Positions 6,727 to 22,685 of a stretch of 25,048 nucleotides of DNA are shown here, piece by piece. The translations under genes were made by a program, and so were the position numbers. The first letter of the stretch is position 1, and the number at the start of each line of letters is the position of its first letter. The stretch is from a virus, in the IMG/VR virus record IMGVR_UViG_3300008217_001450, positions 1-25,048 of that record, one strand, 5' to 3'. The notes beneath the pieces are model-generated. The model did not search any database. It saw nothing but the letters and a program-made list of their open reading frames with translations, and was not told where the DNA came from.

Positions 6727-7891
6727 CTTGGGTAGCCCTATACATTCGTCCTCTCTTTAACTCAAAAATTTGTATCATATTTGACTCATGCATGATGTCT
6801 ATGAGGACTCTTAATTCTTTGGCATCAATATGTCGTACTACTCGTCGTTGGAGATCGGAATGTTTGATTCCATCTGATCCTGCTTCGATGAGAATTTCTC
6901 GTACTCGTCCAACGGCTCCTGCCATTCTAGCCCTTGTATTGAATCCTGATCCAAACAACTTGTTGGCACGATCCTTAGCTTCAGCGATAATCTTAATTCC
7001 ATGGCTGATGTGCCGATCTTGGAGTTCAAGTATTCCATCGTTAATGGCAAGACACGCTGCTGCTCGTAGCACATGATCGTCTTCTCTAGCTTCAAATGAG
7101 GATTGGAAAGGATCTTGGTGAGCATCTCTGTTGTTGTACCACTTAGTGAATTTCTTAAGTCCTCCCTCTGAGATTTGGATTGCTCCAATTCCTCTTCCAG
7201 CTTCTGTCGTCTCCTCGTAGCTGCGAATGATGCATCTGAGTGAGGAGGGATCGCGCTCTTTAGGCCAAGCAATTGCTCGTTTTCTTCTATCTTCAACAAC
7301 AAAGATGACACGGCTTGTAAATCCTCCTTCGATGACGGATGGATTAATGGCTGTAACAAGCCAAGTTGGTGTCGAAGCCGATATAAAAGTGATATAGACA
7401 TTCTTATGTATTAACTCCCCTGACTTTATAGTACCAGGAACGTATCGTTCCGCAGGACTATCGTATAGATCAGTCAATAATCCTGGCATTGTACTCATGT
7501 ATCCTTCTCGTCCCAGTATTGTGACGAGTTCACTAACTGCGAAAGTCGCTCTAGCAGTTCCTTCTTTTCGTGTGCGTTCATGAAGCAGAATTTCAAGACC
7601 TTCTGGGCTTGTCTTTCCGGTAAGTAAGGGACTAGTCCCCCCAACAATAGTTGAAATGCTGCTAATAGCAGTAGACTTTCTTGTAGTACCTGCTTCAGCA
7701 GCCAAGATAATATACCAATTAAGATACACAGGACTATTAGGGCGATCCACATATACGTCACGGCCAACTCCTACTCCTATAGCCCACAAGGCACACCAGA
7801 AATCGTATACTTCTGGAGTCTCAAGCACAGACATGTACTCCATGTACTGTCCGATGAACGAATCAGAAGGGACTAGCTTCTTATAGTTCAT
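6668..7891 (-). CDS. DUF3987-like P-loop replicative helicase/primase-associated protein
   Basis: 407 residues. The segment AEAGTTRKST at about residues 65-74 occupies the Walker A position but has Arg where the classic GK(S/T) motif has Gly. Such variants occur in DUF3987-type ATPases. Further family-like features are SELVTILG as a Walker B/Glu region (near residue 120), the segment LLTDLYDSPAERY, and GGFTSRVIFV near residue 195 as an Arg-finger-like patch. The C-terminal 80 residues (VRHIDAKELRVLIDIM) look like a winged-helix domain. DUF3987 proteins often serve as helicases in phage replication modules. The ATG overlaps the upstream GIY-YIG stop (ATGA), and the gene is the last of the replication operon. 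Its 3' end runs 59 bp into the convergent virion gene. Confidence 0.8.
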   Translation of the reverse strand: MNYKKLVPSDSFIGQYMEYMSVLETPEVYDFWCALWAIGVGVGRDVYVDRPNSPVYLNWYIILAAEAGTTRKSTAISSISTIVGGTSPLLTGKTSPEGLEILLHERTRKEGTARATFAVSELVTILGREGYMSTMPGLLTDLYDSPAERYVPGTIKSGELIHKNVYITFISASTPTWLVTAINPSVIEGGFTSRVIFVVEDRRKRAIAWPKERDPSSLRCIIRSYEETTEAGRGIGAIQISEGGLKKFTKWYNNRDAHQDPFQSSFEAREDDHVLRAAACLAINDGILELQDRHISHGIKIIAEAKDRANKLFGSGFNTRARMAGAVGRVREILIEAGSDGIKHSDLQRRVVRHIDAKELRVLIDIMHESNMIQIFELKRGRMYRATQAIEKFGVTSEILAKLNLQA

Positions 7892-8529
7892 GCTCGGTCT
7901 ACATATGTATCATTTAGTCTTGGCTTATATTTATTAATATAACTTCGTTCTATAGAGTTCAAATCCCATTGAGGAACTTCAACATATGAGAAGGTATCCC
8001 AATTCGTAACATTGTGGGTATTGATGCGTCCCATAATATTAATAGACTGTCCGATATATACTAGTTCTTCTCCTTTGAATAGGAAGTATACCCCACTAAT
8101 CCTATGAATAGTTTGTCTGGTTGATTTGATTGTGCCTAGATTCAATAAGCCTCCCTTATCAAATCCAACTGAGACATCACCGAGGATGCCTTCTAGCTTA
8201 GCTATTCGCATACGGAGTGCAGCAAGTTCTGTATTAGTAGTGTCTGAATCATCTGAAGCTATCGTATATCCTGAGCGTGTTAAGTCTTCGTCACTTTTTG
8301 TCCACCACCCAAGAGCTAAGTCCTCTGTTACCCAATCCATTACAGCCTTTACTTTGTACTTCTTCCATACAGTTCCTTTTGTTCCCACAGGACGCTCAGA
8401 AAATGGGGCAGGAGGATTAGGCACTTCAGACAGAAGCTTGTGGACAGTGCCACGTTCAGTAATGATCTTGCTAAAGTATGTCTTGGACACTACAACATGC
8501 TCATTCATATCTCTTTCAATGTTGACCAT
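7888..8529 (-). CDS. GIY-YIG endonuclease with N-terminal DNA-binding-like region
   Basis: 213 residues from ATG 8529, supported by GGAG 7 nt upstream; a second ATG at 8508 would give an ATGA junction with the polymerase stop. The C-terminal 70 residues are a compact GIY-YIG nuclease domain: GVY (146-148), VYIG (157-160), Arg168, Glu194 in IERSYI, and Pro203/Asn206 in KPRLND. All expected catalytic positions are present. Residues 1-90 are Trp/Lys-rich and look like a small DNA-binding module, followed by a short coiled coil (100-117). It is squeezed between the polymerase (25-bp overlap) and the DUF3987-like helicase (4-bp overlap). Free-standing GIY-YIG enzymes beside a polymerase are often homing endonucleases; a dedicated phage nuclease (host DNA degradation) is the alternative. 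Confidence 0.9.
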   Translation of the reverse strand: MVNIERDMNEHVVVSKTYFSKIITERGTVHKLLSEVPNPPAPFSERPVGTKGTVWKKYKVKAVMDWVTEDLALGWWTKSDEDLTRSGYTIASDDSDTTNTELAALRMRIAKLEGILGDVSVGFDKGGLLNLGTIKSTRQTIHRISGVYFLFKGEELVYIGQSINIMGRINTHNVTNWDTFSYVEVPQWDLNSIERSYINKYKPRLNDTYVDRA

Positions 8530-10955
8530 CTATGTACTCCATCCTCTCCAGGGTGTGACTCTTTCAAGTCAGTGTAGATAACAACAGGCTCGCCGCGGAT
8601 CATAATGGGAGCCTCTGCATGTTTCTTCATAAGTCGTTGCACGATATCCTTATCGTTGGGTCGATGGATTGCGATGAGGGCATCGTGTATATTGAGTAAC
8701 ATACGAGCATCAGTCGGCCACTCCTTGTCTTCATGGCACATGTAAATAACAGATGAGACTTTGTCCCCGATAGTAGATTGGGGCACGAAGGCGATGACAC
8801 TGTCGAAGCTCTCCTCTGTTAATCGTTCAAGCCATATGAGTCGTCTTCCAAGAGGAGTGAATAGCATTCGTTCTTCTCGTACAGTCTTAATCGTGGCTTC
8901 CCATCCCTGTTGTATCTCAGGGAAAGCACGATGGTAGGATGCATAAGCTTCGAATCCCTGTTGAGTGGGGATGCCACAAACCTCTGCAAGTTTGGGTGCT
9001 TGCATTCTATAGTTAAGTCCGTGAACACACCGCTTTCCAAGATATCGTATAGTAGGTTTGAGATTCTCGTCCCAATCTCCTTCGGGAACATCGTTATAAT
9101 CGCACTTGAAAATTCTTCCAGCGTTTCCTCTGTGTACGTCGAATCCATCCTCTGTTTCCGCCCTCTTAAATGTTTCTAATAATCCTTCTACGTTCCAGAT
9201 ATGCGCTACGATCTTAGCTTCAGCTTGCTTCAGATCAAAGTAGCTGAACATGTATCCTTCGTCGCATATGAACATAGGATAAGCACGATGAGGTTGATTC
9301 TGTAGGTTCATGCCTGAACCCCACATCACCTTGCTACTACTTAATCTTCCCGGCGCACTCTGAGTCCCAAACTGTTTATATTCACAGCGAAGTCTATGGT
9401 CGGGATCGACCTTTTGAGTGGCATAGGTACTATAGAACTTATGTTCTCTGAGCCAGTCATCAATATGGATAAGAAGTTCCTTTTGTTCTGTAGTAGTACG
9501 AACATGTTCACGCATTCGGATACGGTTCTCTTTATTTGTGCTACTTCCTCGTCCGACCAATCCCAAGTAGTTGAAAAATAATTCACCAAGTTGTTTAGGA
9601 GATCTTGGATTAGGCTTAAAGTCTTCATCACCTGTGAGAGCAATAACCTTTGCATGGAACTCCCTGAGTTTCTCATCAAGTTCATGTTTTAATTCCTCCG
9701 TGATCTTGTCCTTCAATGTTTCATCTGCAAGTATACCTCCTACCTGCATCTTAATAAGGTGAGGTTGGAGTCTCATAACATGGTTGAAGAAGAAGTCATC
9801 TAGTCCTTGTGTACGTAGCTCTTTATATATTGCATCATGTACAGCCCAAGTGATGCAACAATCTTTAATGTTGTAGTCCCAGAAGTCATTGATGTTTCCA
9901 CCCTCACGCCAAGTCTTTCCTTCATCTTTATAATATGGATGGTCAGTGTATTGAGCGGTGAGATGTCCTAAGTTATGAGGCATCCGTGGATATAATGTAT
10001 GGTGAGCAAGAAGGGTATCAAACCAAACATGTGGGACATGAATCCTATCCTTATACCATAGCCAGCCACAGTCAAACGATCCATTCTGTGCTATGAATTT
10101 CTTTTCCGGATTCTGAAATAGTTGTTGTATTCTTCTACGGAGTATGAGTTCCTGCTGAAGCTCGTATCTATTAGATGTGCCATCTCTGAAGTTGATACAT
10201 ATTCCTGTGTGGGCGTTGTTTGCAAATCCAATGCAAGCTGTTTCGTTGGCAATGACTTCGATATCGAAAGCAATTGGTGCGTTATCTCTTCCAAGTTGCT
10301 CAAGGTAAGCATTAGCTTTGTCAAAACTTGGGTTAATGATTCCTGTAATATCATGTCGCTTGAAGTTTCCATCCATTACTCTCCTGAGTTTGGCTATGTC
10401 GAACTTATACATAGGCTCCATAGCTAAGTTACGAAGTATGTGAGCAGGGTTGTTGGTTACTATAACCTTTACTGTACGTTGAGTTCGTCCAACCTTACAG
10501 TCAAATACACTTCCTCTCCACTTGGTGATTCCAGTATCTCCAGTGAGAGCGTGAAGGGCGAAGTTACCGAGTGCCAAGATGTATGTGAGATTTGGGAGAT
10601 GATCAAGTTCCCAGTCGAGTAAGCCTTCCCAATGTTCCAACTCAGGCTTCTTAACAGGATTTCTAGCATCAGTCTTAGTAGACAACGCCACTTGTTTCTT
10701 GACCACGTTAGTAACATAACAGTCGGCTCTCCTTATATTGTGTGGACGTAGTACATCCCACAGCAATTTACCACTACCACCTACGAGTGGCATTTTCATG
10801 GCAACCTCACGTTCGCCAGGAGCTTCAGCGATGACACAGATTTTACTTTTAATATCTCCAGCGCCTAGACAATCTACTGTAAGATTACATGCCTTGGCAC
10901 GACGAGAGAACTCTCGGATTAGTTCTCCTTCAGTGGTGACTTTAGCATTCCCCAT
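8505..10955 (-). CDS. Family A DNA polymerase fused to N-terminal uracil-DNA-glycosylase-like domain
   Basis: 816 residues, the phage replicase. Residues 25-200 resemble family 4 UDG: AEAPGERE (43-50), GGSGKLL (59-65), ALGNFALHALTG (128-139) and NNPAHILR (168-175). The last motif normally begins with His, so uracil excision is doubtful. The 3'-5' exonuclease is complete: DIE (231-233), NGSFD (291-295), YNIKD (361-365). The polymerase domain has GRLSS and NLQNQP (536-555), motif A FDLKQAEAK (573-581), motif B R637, K641, Y649, and motif C HDA (757-759). His645 aligns with E. coli Pol I Phe762, and Ala759 replaces the usual Glu. SPO1-type phages also have a UDG-like domain on PolA. The gene overlaps the dNMP kinase by 37 bp and the GIY-YIG gene by 25 bp. 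Confidence 0.95.
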   Translation of the reverse strand: MGNAKVTTEGELIREFSRRAKACNLTVDCLGAGDIKSKICVIAEAPGEREVAMKMPLVGGSGKLLWDVLRPHNIRRADCYVTNVVKKQVALSTKTDARNPVKKPELEHWEGLLDWELDHLPNLTYILALGNFALHALTGDTGITKWRGSVFDCKVGRTQRTVKVIVTNNPAHILRNLAMEPMYKFDIAKLRRVMDGNFKRHDITGIINPSFDKANAYLEQLGRDNAPIAFDIEVIANETACIGFANNAHTGICINFRDGTSNRYELQQELILRRRIQQLFQNPEKKFIAQNGSFDCGWLWYKDRIHVPHVWFDTLLAHHTLYPRMPHNLGHLTAQYTDHPYYKDEGKTWREGGNINDFWDYNIKDCCITWAVHDAIYKELRTQGLDDFFFNHVMRLQPHLIKMQVGGILADETLKDKITEELKHELDEKLREFHAKVIALTGDEDFKPNPRSPKQLGELFFNYLGLVGRGSSTNKENRIRMREHVRTTTEQKELLIHIDDWLREHKFYSTYATQKVDPDHRLRCEYKQFGTQSAPGRLSSSKVMWGSGMNLQNQPHRAYPMFICDEGYMFSYFDLKQAEAKIVAHIWNVEGLLETFKRAETEDGFDVHRGNAGRIFKCDYNDVPEGDWDENLKPTIRYLGKRCVHGLNYRMQAPKLAEVCGIPTQQGFEAYASYHRAFPEIQQGWEATIKTVREERMLFTPLGRRLIWLERLTEESFDSVIAFVPQSTIGDKVSSVIYMCHEDKEWPTDARMLLNIHDALIAIHRPNDKDIVQRLMKKHAEAPIMIRGEPVVIYTDLKESHPGEDGVHRWSTLKEI

Positions 10956-11497
10956 GCAACAAGCACCTTTCTAATCTGGGCATGATACAATTCCAAGTCG
11001 TATTTGTTATTGATCTTTGCTGTGTAAGAGGAAATAAAGTATTTAGTATTTATCCATTCACGGATATCCTTATCAAATGAATACCCTGGACGCTCAATTT
11101 GTAGCAGAAAACATTTCTCTTTGCCAAATGTATGGACGAGATCTTGTACTTCACTATCTTTACCGCTATCTGAAATGATTATATACTGGGACAATAACTT
11201 TGGGATACGATTACATGCAATTGAACTAAGGATGTTTTCTCCTAGTTCTTCAGCCAACATGTTGTATAGAATAATCTGCATTTGACGAAACGTTTTATCA
11301 CCAAAGACTTCTTGTGGATCATCCTTGTTCTTCTCCATTTCAACAGGATTTTGAATATCAAATATAGATAGGATGCCTTGTTTCAAAGGACGCGACATCT
11401 TATATTCGGTACTCATTCTAACGGAAGATAAAATGAATCGTGCTGCGGTATCCTTACCACAACCAGGAGGGCCATTAAGGCAGATGATGGTACTCAC
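10919..11497 (-). CDS. Deoxynucleoside monophosphate kinase-like protein
   Basis: 192 residues with a GTG start overlapping the helicase stop (GTGA). A clear P-loop, GPPGCGKDT, lies at residues 9-17 directly after a beta strand, as in nucleoside/nucleotide kinases. Asp16 after the P-loop Lys is typical of the T4 gp1-like/adenylate-kinase-related dNMP kinases of phages. Other supporting segments are MSRPLKQGI (near 34-42), FRQMQIILYNMLAEELGENI, and a Walker B-like strand IIISDSGKDSEVQDL. The enzyme would phosphorylate dNMPs to feed the adjacent polymerase. It ends 37 bp inside the polymerase start, consistent with coordinated expression. Substrate preference cannot be read from the sequence. 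Confidence 0.8.
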   Translation of the reverse strand: MSTIICLNGPPGCGKDTAARFILSSVRMSTEYKMSRPLKQGILSIFDIQNPVEMEKNKDDPQEVFGDKTFRQMQIILYNMLAEELGENILSSIACNRIPKLLSQYIIISDSGKDSEVQDLVHTFGKEKCFLLQIERPGYSFDKDIREWINTKYFISSYTAKINNKYDLELYHAQIRKVLVAWGMLKSPLKEN

Positions 11498-18914: not shown

Positions 18915-19364
18915 TCAACCCCTGCTTTTGGAATGGTTTCTGCCTGTTGCAATTGCTGATATAGTTTCTCTCGAAACTCCATAAAGGATAGCAATTTCCT
19001 TTTGTGTTTTCCCTTCGTCAAGTAGTCTACGTATAGCGCGTACAACAATAATAGGAAGTCCATGACGGTCGCGCTCCTTCATATCATTCATATTGGCTTG
19101 ATGATCGCCCCAAGATAGATGATGAGGATTGCAGCAAATAAGATTGTCACAAGAGTGTAATACCATCTGGTCTTTTGTCTTTTTCTCCTCTTTAACCAAT
19201 GAAAGGACGTAGGCATACGCTGGATGGCGTTGCTTGTTGACAGTAAAGTAGGGGCGTCCATCTTTGGCGTTTGTCTTACTTGTCCAAGGCCAACAAACAT
19301 TTATGTCACCACCTTTCATGTCTATGTATTTGAATACATCAGTTGGTTTGTTTTCGCGTGGCAT
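18915..19364 (-). CDS. HNH endonuclease with C-terminal helix-turn-helix
   Basis: 149 residues. The HNH/zinc core is clear: CWPWTS at 24-29, then VLHSCDNLICCNPHHL (68-83), giving His70, Asn79 and His82 as the HNH residues with Cys24, Cys72 and Cys77/78 as zinc ligands, followed by NMNDMKERDRHG. Residues 118-140 (GKTQKEIAILYGVSRETIS) form a helix-turn-helix, typical of the DNA-recognition module of free-standing homing HNH enzymes. It overlaps the oxygenase gene by 26 bp and has only a weak AGAAG ribosome-binding site. Its position as the last gene before a terminator fits a mobile insertion. Confidence 0.9.
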   Translation of the reverse strand: MPRENKPTDVFKYIDMKGGDINVCWPWTSKTNAKDGRPYFTVNKQRHPAYAYVLSLVKEEKKTKDQMVLHSCDNLICCNPHHLSWGDHQANMNDMKERDRHGLPIIVVRAIRRLLDEGKTQKEIAILYGVSRETISAIATGRNHSKSRG

Positions 19365-19941
19365 CTTCTTCTATCATAACAAAGTTAACTGAAAAGCTGC
19401 GACGTTCCCCAGTTATCTTACCAATGGGATATACTTGATGTTGTAGATACCATGGAAAGACATAAAAGTCACCAACTTTTGGTGCGATAACATGTGGAAC
19501 ATGAGGATAACTTCCAGAATAGAACGATAACTTGCCTTTTACTTTGTCTTCTTCGGCATAGTTATCGGGTAGTTTTAAGAATCCAACCGATGACATGACA
19601 CATTCAGTGTGCCAATGCAATGGATTGAACTCATGAGGCTCTAACATGCGATTAAACCAAGCATTGGCAACTACAATCCGTGGTATGATGTGCTTGATCT
19701 CTGGTTTATTGCTTAAATCAGTTGCTAGATGCTCTTTAGCAGCATCAGTGAGGAATTTACCGTGCTTCTCGATTATTTCTACTTGGACTTTGTTTTGTTG
19801 ATCTATTCGACCGACTAAATGGGCACTATGATCTTCATTAGCAACCTCACAATTTTTATTGAAGTCGTTGAGTAGTTCATTGGGTAATTCAAAGCAACTG
19901 ATAAGTGTCCCAATACGTTGGTGGTATTTAAGACTATCCAT
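19339..19941 (-). CDS. 2-oxoglutarate/Fe(II)-dependent oxygenase-like protein
   Basis: 200 residues. The metal and substrate residues of phage 2OG-Fe(II) oxygenases are readable: FNPLHWHTE with His111-x-Glu113 (His109 nearby), followed by a VGFLKLPDN strand, then GDFYVFPWYLQHQVYP with distal His168 and ERRSFSVNF with Arg180/181 for 2-oxoglutarate. The HxE rather than HxD pair is seen in part of the family. Such genes are common in aquatic phages, where they may hydroxylate proteins or modified bases, but no substrate can be named here. It is transcribed with the 69-aa gene and overlaps the HNH gene by 26 bp. Confidence 0.85.
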   Translation of the reverse strand: MDSLKYHQRIGTLISCFELPNELLNDFNKNCEVANEDHSAHLVGRIDQQNKVQVEIIEKHGKFLTDAAKEHLATDLSNKPEIKHIIPRIVVANAWFNRMLEPHEFNPLHWHTECVMSSVGFLKLPDNYAEEDKVKGKLSFYSGSYPHVPHVIAPKVGDFYVFPWYLQHQVYPIGKITGERRSFSVNFVMIEEDATRKQTN

Positions 19942-21653: not shown

Positions 21654-21971
21654 TTACTTTAATCTATAATCCCTCATATCATAGATGTCCGATTGGTTGT
21701 CGATTAACTCAACCTTAAGGAATGAGAACAACCAATAGTCATCGCCGTACCTATCGACGAATCGTGAGTAGTAAGTCCAACGTCCAAACTGTTCGAACGT
21801 CATGTGCAACTCGATTTGCGACTGAATTGCTGCTTCGGCTATATCCTTGGCTTCCTTTAATCCTATGCCAAAGATGTCACGTATAAACCTAACAGTCTCC
21901 ACTTTGCCTCCTTCATTTCTTGGGTCTAAGCACTCGGGACATGTAAATCTAATCTTGAGATAACTATTCAT
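21654..21971 (-). CDS. Ribosomal protein bL12 C-terminal-like protein
   Basis: 105 residues. Residues 23-47 (KVETVRFIRDIFGIGLKEAK, then DIAEA) match the conserved factor-binding helices of bacterial L7/L12, where the E. coli sequence is [20 protein letters not shown]. A CPEC pair (Cys11, Cys14) precedes it, possibly with a metal site. The rest is Tyr/Trp-rich (RWTYYSRFVDRYGDDYWLF). The N-terminal dimerisation domain of cellular L12 is absent, so it cannot replace the ribosomal protein directly. bL12-like genes are known in aquatic phages. It could bind translation factors or the ribosome, or simply reuse the fold. The ATG overlaps the NADAR stop (ATGA). Confidence 0.75.
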   Translation of the reverse strand: MNSYLKIRFTCPECLDPRNEGGKVETVRFIRDIFGIGLKEAKDIAEAAIQSQIELHMTFEQFGRWTYYSRFVDRYGDDYWLFSFLKVELIDNQSDIYDMRDYRLK

Positions 21972-22378
21972 TTCGCTAACTCCTCTCTCACTTCCATTAA
22001 CATGATGCCAAGCTTGTTCTGGCCCTTACCATTACAGCGTCCCCAATAGGTATCACCCCAATGGTTATCTTCAATTAACTCGATGTTACCAGTATCAATT
22101 AACATACTGCCTAACATCTTGTCATCAAACTTAGCCATTAACACTTGCCACATCACGGCATCCTTAATCTCATTCCAACTCCGTGATAGTATTACATGGC
22201 GTCCTGCTTTCTTGGCTTGATATCCATCCATGTTGAGGAATCTCTTTCTCTCTTCTCTGTCCTCACATTTCATCATCTGGTAGATTGTTTCACTGCTCTT
22301 GTAAACCAATCCATCATCCCATGTCACTAAGCATGGGAACATATTACTTAGAAAGTGCCATTCACCTCTAAATTTCAT
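21968..22378 (-). CDS. NADAR-family protein (YbiA-like)
   Basis: 136 residues from ATG 22378, chosen because AGGAG is 7 nt upstream and the NADAR fold usually begins just here (FRGEWHFLSNMFP). Family motifs seen: SSETIYQMMK (28-37), AGRHVILSRSWNEIKDAVMW, a KF/Ll segment (LMAKFDDKML), then DNHWGDTYWG and GKGQNKLGIMLMEVR. NADAR proteins act on NAD/ADP-ribose derivatives; some bacterial members remove ADP-ribose from guanine in DNA, and YbiA-type enzymes act on riboflavin intermediates. An upstream in-frame ATG at 22549 would add 57 residues with a hydrophobic segment but has only AAGG as ribosome-binding site. Its stop overlaps the bL12-like start, so the two are coupled. Confidence 0.88.
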   Translation of the reverse strand: MKFRGEWHFLSNMFPCLVTWDDGLVYKSSETIYQMMKCEDREERKRFLNMDGYQAKKAGRHVILSRSWNEIKDAVMWQVLMAKFDDKMLGSMLIDTGNIELIEDNHWGDTYWGRCNGKGQNKLGIMLMEVREELAK

Positions 22379-22436
22379 CTCTTTACTCCTATTAAACCCA
22401 CAAAACACACACCAGCACACAGAAGCAGACAGCACC

Positions 22437-22531
22437 AAGCGTATCAGCCAGGGGCTTTTACCACCGCAATCAAGGCCCGAAGACAAGGACTCAGGCCAAA
22501 AACTGATGTCTGTGTTGAGGTTGATACGCTT
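22437..22531. repeat. Perfect 10-bp inverted repeat with 75-bp loop
   Basis: AAGCGTATCA (22437-22446) and TGATACGCTT (22522-22531). In a minus-strand transcript the arms would enclose further GGCC and GCGG/CCCC pairings and lie just upstream of the NADAR ribosome-binding site. It could be a structured mRNA leader or a protein-binding site. Confidence 0.55.
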
Positions 22532-22685
22532 ATACGTGATGTACCACATCTTGTACCTTGTTGATGTTGTTAGGGTTTATGTTGGGGATTAATAATAGCC
22601 ACTAACCCTCCTTATGTGACGTTAAAGTGTTGTTACTGGACAGTTTAGCGTTGTTAATGACACACAGGCTAAGACAAGGGTGCAA

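Follow-up and report, generated by a model that had tools for sequence, protein, structure and literature searches.

Why would a phage carry a UDG-like domain on its DNA polymerase when that domain lacks the active-site His? This question is raised by a PolA gene on the minus strand of the window, as we call the whole 25,048-nt stretch of viral DNA analyzed here (positions 1 to 25,048 of IMG/VR record IMGVR_UViG_3300008217_001450). The gene occupies positions 8505..10955, as originally predicted, starts with ATG and runs for 816 codons, encoding an 816-aa protein with an N-terminal UDG-like domain, a 3'-5' exonuclease and a family-A polymerase. Pfam matches, each above its curated cut-off (UDG, residues 31–178, E 5.2e-17; DNA_pol_A_exo1, 218–380; DNA_pol_A, 418–780), and a full-length predicted model (pLDDT 92.1, pTM 0.89) place the three parts in that order within a single protein. 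The UDG-like domain covers residues 9–200 (10356..10931; this and the other PolA features below lie on the minus strand) according to Pfam, AlphaFold2 and structural matches, and Pfam places the exonuclease at about residues 215–385 (9801..10313) and the polymerase at residues 418–780 (8616..9704). Residues 200–815 of the full-length model matched Klenow-type polymerases with Z up to 35.7 among the PDB matches listed. The exonuclease residues D231, E233, D295, Y361 and D365 and the polymerase residues D574, R637, K641, Y649 and D758 are unchanged across 37 full-length rows, so the polymerase that carries the UDG part appears to be functional, proofreading included. The O-helix of the polymerase reads KRCVHGLNY, with His at residue 645 (9021–9023) where Pol I has Phe762; this His is common to the relatives of the window (the window clade) and to those sister phages that keep the motif-2 His (HGLNY/HGTNY), while another PolA-UDG lineage has NFGLLY/NFGFIY.

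The N-terminal domain of PolA is predicted to have the fold of a family-4 UDG. The original prediction had left room for the absence of a UDG fold; the AlphaFold2 model of residues 1–213 (58 sequences) reached a mean pLDDT of 89.6 and a pTM of 0.85, and its best structural matches were family-4 UDGs (4zbx, Z 23.3, rmsd 2.3 over 182 residues; 1ui0, Z 23.0; 1vk2, Z 22.7), followed by UdgX with Z of about 21–22. Profile comparison likewise matched the N-domain to the Thermotoga UDG TM0511 (E 2.4e-37) and to Thermus UDGa (Tth UDGa; E 8.5e-35). In the TM0511 alignment NNPAHILRN falls on FHPSYLLRN, and the catalytic His (H155 of Tth UDGa) therefore corresponds to Asn169 of the phage protein.

We scanned IMG/VR for related loci and obtained 78, whose N-domains make up the window clade (42–94% identity to the window domain) and its sister groups (about 26–41%). 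Hosts and prophages were also sought among bacterial and archaeal genome contigs, with no match. Within the clade the UDG-like domain is under purifying selection and is not decaying: its pairwise dN/dS is about 0.04–0.12, against medians of 0.10 for the exonuclease and 0.08 for the polymerase, and 41 of its positions are near-invariant. Four residues, W66, E105, W109 and W115, are invariant in the clade and missing from the sister rows.

The residues by which a family-4 enzyme recognizes uracil are kept. In Tth UDGa these are E41, E47 and N80, the last of which hydrogen-bonds uracil N3/O4 (PMC5387724); E47 excludes the 5-methyl group of thymine. Motif 1 of the window protein (AEAPGERE, residues 43–50; 10806..10829) provides E44 and E50 as counterparts of E41 and E47, each present in 37 of the 38 clade rows of alignment A2, and the TNVVK segment (residues 82–86; 10698..10712) provides N83 as counterpart of N80, which is found in all 38 rows, as is K86. 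By conservation within the clade N83 ranks 9th, E44 29th and E50 30th of 207 positions, and the altered sites 169, 57 and 92 rank 60th, 117th and 135th.

These altered sites are those of the chemistry and of base stacking. Motif 2 reads NNPAHILR (residues 168–175; 10431..10454), with N169 (codon AAC, 10449–10451) in place of the catalytic His. Among the 38 distinct clade rows that reach this site, 34 have Asn and four have Glu, whereas all 20 sister rows have His; the replacement, fixed down to 42% domain identity, is thus neither a sequencing slip nor chance, and the missing His-Pro motif of the original prediction was borne out. Asn is encoded by AAC or AAT, each a single base change away from His, and the Glu rows have GAA or GAG. 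S92 (10680..10682) replaces the Asn of motif 3 that is proposed to place the attacking water in Tth UDGa (N89; PMC5387724): position 92 is mostly Ser in the clade and Asn in none of its 38 rows, against Asn in 17 of the 20 sister rows. A broad 112-row alignment does not place N89 reliably, and these values were therefore taken from A2 and the Thermus profile alignment. L57 (10785..10787) stands where F54 of Tth UDGa stacks on uracil (PMC5387724), and the clade has Leu in 23 rows, Met in 13 and Phe in two, while Phe is found in 19 of the 20 sister rows (A2). The third residue of motif 1 is Ala45, so the position offers no catalytic Asp or Asn of the kind used by families 1 and 2, and Tth C84, the iron-sulphur Cys adjoining motif 3, is replaced by Lys or Arg in every clade row. 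The original prediction was therefore right that AEAPGERE and GGSGKLL (residues 59–65; 10761..10781) are present, but the pocket is less complete than these motifs imply, with F54, N89 and the iron-sulphur Cys all changed. A substitute catalytic His was also sought, but every candidate His position varies among the clade rows, the best being H201 (34/36 rows), H108 (33/38) and H135 (29/38).

Work on related enzymes indicates what such changes cost. The H155S mutation of Tth UDGa lowers k2 more than thousandfold with Km nearly unchanged, and F54A lowers k2/Km about 17-fold (PMC5387724); in UdgX, mutation of the corresponding His (H178A) leaves a protein that is folded yet inactive (PMC10776899). 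The domain is thus unlikely to be of use as a uracil glycosylase. UDG families 2 and 6, however, do not have the motif-2 His and still cleave some bases (PMC5387724), so that the missing His alone is no proof of inactivity.

To place the clade among other PolA-UDG proteins, a second scan was seeded with Lebethron-type polymerases and returned 79 further loci. In the joint table of both scans, the full set of family-4 residues is present in many PolA-UDG proteins. In SPO1, LysYB1, Lebethron and P744 the His remains and Ser, Gly or Pro replaces the uracil-specific Asn, and both the His and the recognition residues are lost in Huwbert, Cozz, L143, L144, L150, L155, L157 and L174. The last six of these, with L024 and L017, belong to an independent PolA-UDG group in which the His has become Ser or Ala, the recognition residues are gone and motif 1 is degenerate. 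The PolA of Desulfofustis phage LS06 (locus L019, 11779–12480), which is absent from the tree described below, has motif 1 GDNPSAHE, a TYAIK segment and motif 2 INPN; it is a further case of Asn at the place of the His, with Tyr for the uracil-specific Asn.

We built a quick tree of 77 rows, SPO1 not included, from the exonuclease and polymerase columns. Changes between His and not-His took six steps on this tree, five of them forced by fully supported branches; because the tree is unrooted and some branches are long, the step count is approximate and shows changes rather than strictly losses. The Asn/Glu rows of the window clade are set apart from all others by a fully supported branch, and the LysYB1 polymerase falls in a lineage other than that of the window. 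Several lineages outside the window clade thus also have no motif-2 His and still keep the domain. The persistence of the domain where catalysis is, by sequence, lost suggests that what phages gain from the fusion in the long run is a polymerase that binds DNA or a base through it.

Our preferred reading, to which we assign a probability of about 0.5, is that the domain is a family-4-type UDG which has lost its glycosylase chemistry but is retained to bind DNA without catalysis, on a family-A polymerase that is otherwise an ordinary proofreading enzyme. A single loss of the chemistry, in the common ancestor of the window clade, would be the simplest history. Without the His, a leaving uracil would not be usefully stabilized, while the pocket could still hold an unpaired uracil, a similar pyrimidine or the single-stranded template beside the polymerase; the domain would then act as a sensor of, or a grip on, the template and would make no abasic site in the DNA being copied. 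That E44, E50 and N83 stay when the chemistry is gone speaks for a pocket in which uracil or a similar pyrimidine is still bound but not excised, and the original proposal of a binding domain in place of a glycosylase fits the predicted fold and this residue pattern. Several points weigh against the preferred reading. Loss of the stacking Phe should weaken uracil binding; conservation of the recognition residues may be partly structural, given that N83 lies beside K86 and that K94 of UdgX is required for folding (PMC10776899); some clade members have other residues in place of the motif-1 PG, namely VN in L029–L032, L035 and L036 and IT in L007 (GEAITT); and the activity of families 2 and 6 counts here as well. 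A more specific form of the idea is a built-in uracil reader derived from a dead family-4 glycosylase, in which template uracil would be flipped out and held uncut so that synthesis pauses or the strand is marked. We regard this form as tentative and, as it stands, doubtful.

A pure scaffold, in which the domain grips DNA or contacts a replisome protein and the base pocket has no role, is a serious rival, since binding is expected to be weaker without the stacking Phe and since UDG folds are known to serve in replisomes; it is possible, though we do not favour it. The motif-2 His has changed state repeatedly on PolA, with at least five forced changes, while the domain has stayed. The Huwbert/Cozz group and its relatives have lost their recognition residues too, which indicates that the fusion can persist without the pocket, and the clade-specific W66, E105, W109 and W115 may form a new contact surface. 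Precedents exist in vaccinia D4, a UNG which has glycosylase activity and serves as a processivity factor (PMC10253040), and in the UNG of gamma-herpesviruses, which has a structural part in the replisome (PMC5934625). An idle pocket is, however, hard to square with E44, E50 and N83 being among the most conserved positions of the window clade, when other PolA-UDG groups have freely lost the equivalent of N83.

It is unlikely that the domain still cleaves a base, by a changed chemistry or from a changed substrate, with Asn169 or another residue taking part; families 2 and 6 are glycosylases that manage without the motif-2 His (PMC5387724). The recognition residues of the pocket are kept, which speaks for this alternative, but the third residue of motif 1 is Ala and not Asp or Asn, N89 is also gone, no His is constant across the clade, and one subclade has Glu at 169. 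That subclade (L029–L032, L035, L036 and L051) has NEPGH at the His site and EAVN in place of EAPG in motif 1. Two defined chemistries were rejected in turn: the family-2 (MUG/TDG) type because the position of the GxNP Asn, third in motif 1, is Ala45, and UdgX-type cross-linking because the motif-3 loop, TNVVKKQVALSTKTDARNPVKK, contains no His.

Far less probable is recognition of a modified or substituted base in the phage's own DNA, whether of hmU type, uracil or another. This alternative grew out of the original prediction, which noted correctly that SPO1 PolA bears a UDG-like domain and proposed by that route that base modification be sought here. SPO1, whose annotation includes a dUMP hydroxymethylase, has indeed a thymidylate-synthase-family gene, as have LysYB1, MW202455, Lebethron, P744, Huwbert, StAshley and, weakly, Cozz, together with 34 of 47 records of the second PolA-UDG lineage, although records from within a lineage cannot be counted as independent. 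In annotated members of this second lineage (L100–L178) the gene often lies beside dCMP deaminase, dUTPase and thymidylate kinase genes. No thymidylate synthase/hydroxymethylase family gene was found in the window, in the other window-clade records searched or in the sister records, and ThyX was likewise absent from the clade and sister records searched. Neither dUTPase nor dCMP deaminase was found in the window-clade records, with a single dUTPase match in sister record G018 and one dCMP deaminase in sister record G012. The window record, as a 25-kb fragment, proves little by such absences alone; clade records G002 (43.9 kb) and G003 (47.2 kb), however, are of full-genome length for phages of this kind, about as long as the complete Mel-JY34 and Desulfofustis phage (44.4 kb) genomes, which makes the absences informative. 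Pyrimidine modification through these enzymes was therefore rejected for the clade. The contrast between the window clade with its sisters and the lineage in which 34 of 47 records carry such a gene indicates that a UDG domain on PolA is itself no sign of modified DNA. The bridge from SPO1 to the window fails on both gene content and pocket: SPO1 keeps the His (IHPN) and has lost the uracil-specific Asn, the opposite of the pattern seen here. Retention of E50 does not favour a 5-substituted base either.

Two other genes of the window lend this alternative some colour. A dNMP-kinase-like gene (10919–11497) overlaps polA at its start; farther away, at 19339–19941, lies a putative 2OG-Fe(II) oxygenase (PF13759), with a related oxygenase in G002. 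A GIY-YIG gene (7888–8529) overlaps the end of polA. Counterparts of the kinase and the GIY-YIG gene were not found in the near-complete relative G002, so both look optional, and the kinase was rejected as a sign of base modification for this reason. An NADAR-domain protein is encoded at 21968–22549 of the window, and no counterpart of it was found in G002. The least probable alternative, a decaying remnant without function, could appeal to the several changed catalytic and stacking positions and to the eroded motif 1 of L007 and the VN group, but is dismissed on the dN/dS values near those of the exonuclease and polymerase, the 41 near-invariant positions and the fixation of Asn/Glu at 169.

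Fusions of a UDG domain to PolA are already known from SPO1, PaBG (PMC7412058) and phiLo (PDB 9qhs). A large clade in which catalysis is lost and recognition kept, as judged from its residues, appears to be new, and our search of the open-access literature turned up no description of a phage PolA whose UDG domain is inactive. Such domains have previously been read as a repair activity, as in PaBG, or tied by the original prediction to modified DNA, with SPO1 as the example. The proteins with and without the His, and with and without the uracil-specific Asn, provide a natural set for comparison on uracil templates.

Compared with the UDGa enzymes of Thermus (1ui0), Thermotoga (TM0511, 1vk2) and Sulfolobus (4zbx), the window domain shares the predicted fold across its whole length (Z 22–23), the EAPG of motif 1 with the equivalents of E41 and E47, and the equivalents of Asn80 and Lys83 in motif 3. 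It differs in having Asn or Glu for His155, no Asn89, usually Leu or Met for Phe54, no iron-sulphur Cys next to motif 3, and a fusion to PolA; because of the departures at His155, N89 and Phe54 we did not class it as a family-4 UDG. With UdgX of Mycobacterium smegmatis it shares the family-4-like fold (Z 21–22) and the motif-3 Asn and Lys, but has neither the cross-linking His of the motif-3 loop nor the motif-2 His. Vaccinia D4 and the gamma-herpesvirus UNG resemble the scaffold interpretation in using a UDG fold as part of a viral replisome, and differ in being UNG-type and encoded apart from the polymerase.

Further parallels are other phage polymerases. The sister phages Microcystis phage Mel-JY34 and Bacteriophage sp. 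MW202489 have the same domain order and polymerase lineage, and no thymidylate-synthase gene was found in them, but they keep the motif-2 His. SPO1 gp31 and the PolA of Lysinibacillus phage LysYB1 also bear an N-terminal UDG-like domain on an exonuclease-polymerase; unlike the window protein, they keep the motif-2 His, have Ser or Gly for the uracil-specific Asn and NP in motif 1, and come from genomes with a dUMP hydroxymethylase or thymidylate-synthase-family gene. Jumbo phage PaBG gp205 has the same fusion, and its authors, working from models, read its UDG domain as uracil-removing (PMC7412058). In the family-A polymerase of Thermus phage phiLo, the structure of which has been solved (9qhs, 'with modified template'), the UDG domain matches the window N-domain with Z 14.2 but keeps GEAPG and the motif-2 His (NHPS). 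Archaeal family-B polymerases have a read-ahead uracil pocket, and a PolA-borne uracil reader, if true, would be its bacterial-virus counterpart in a different fold.
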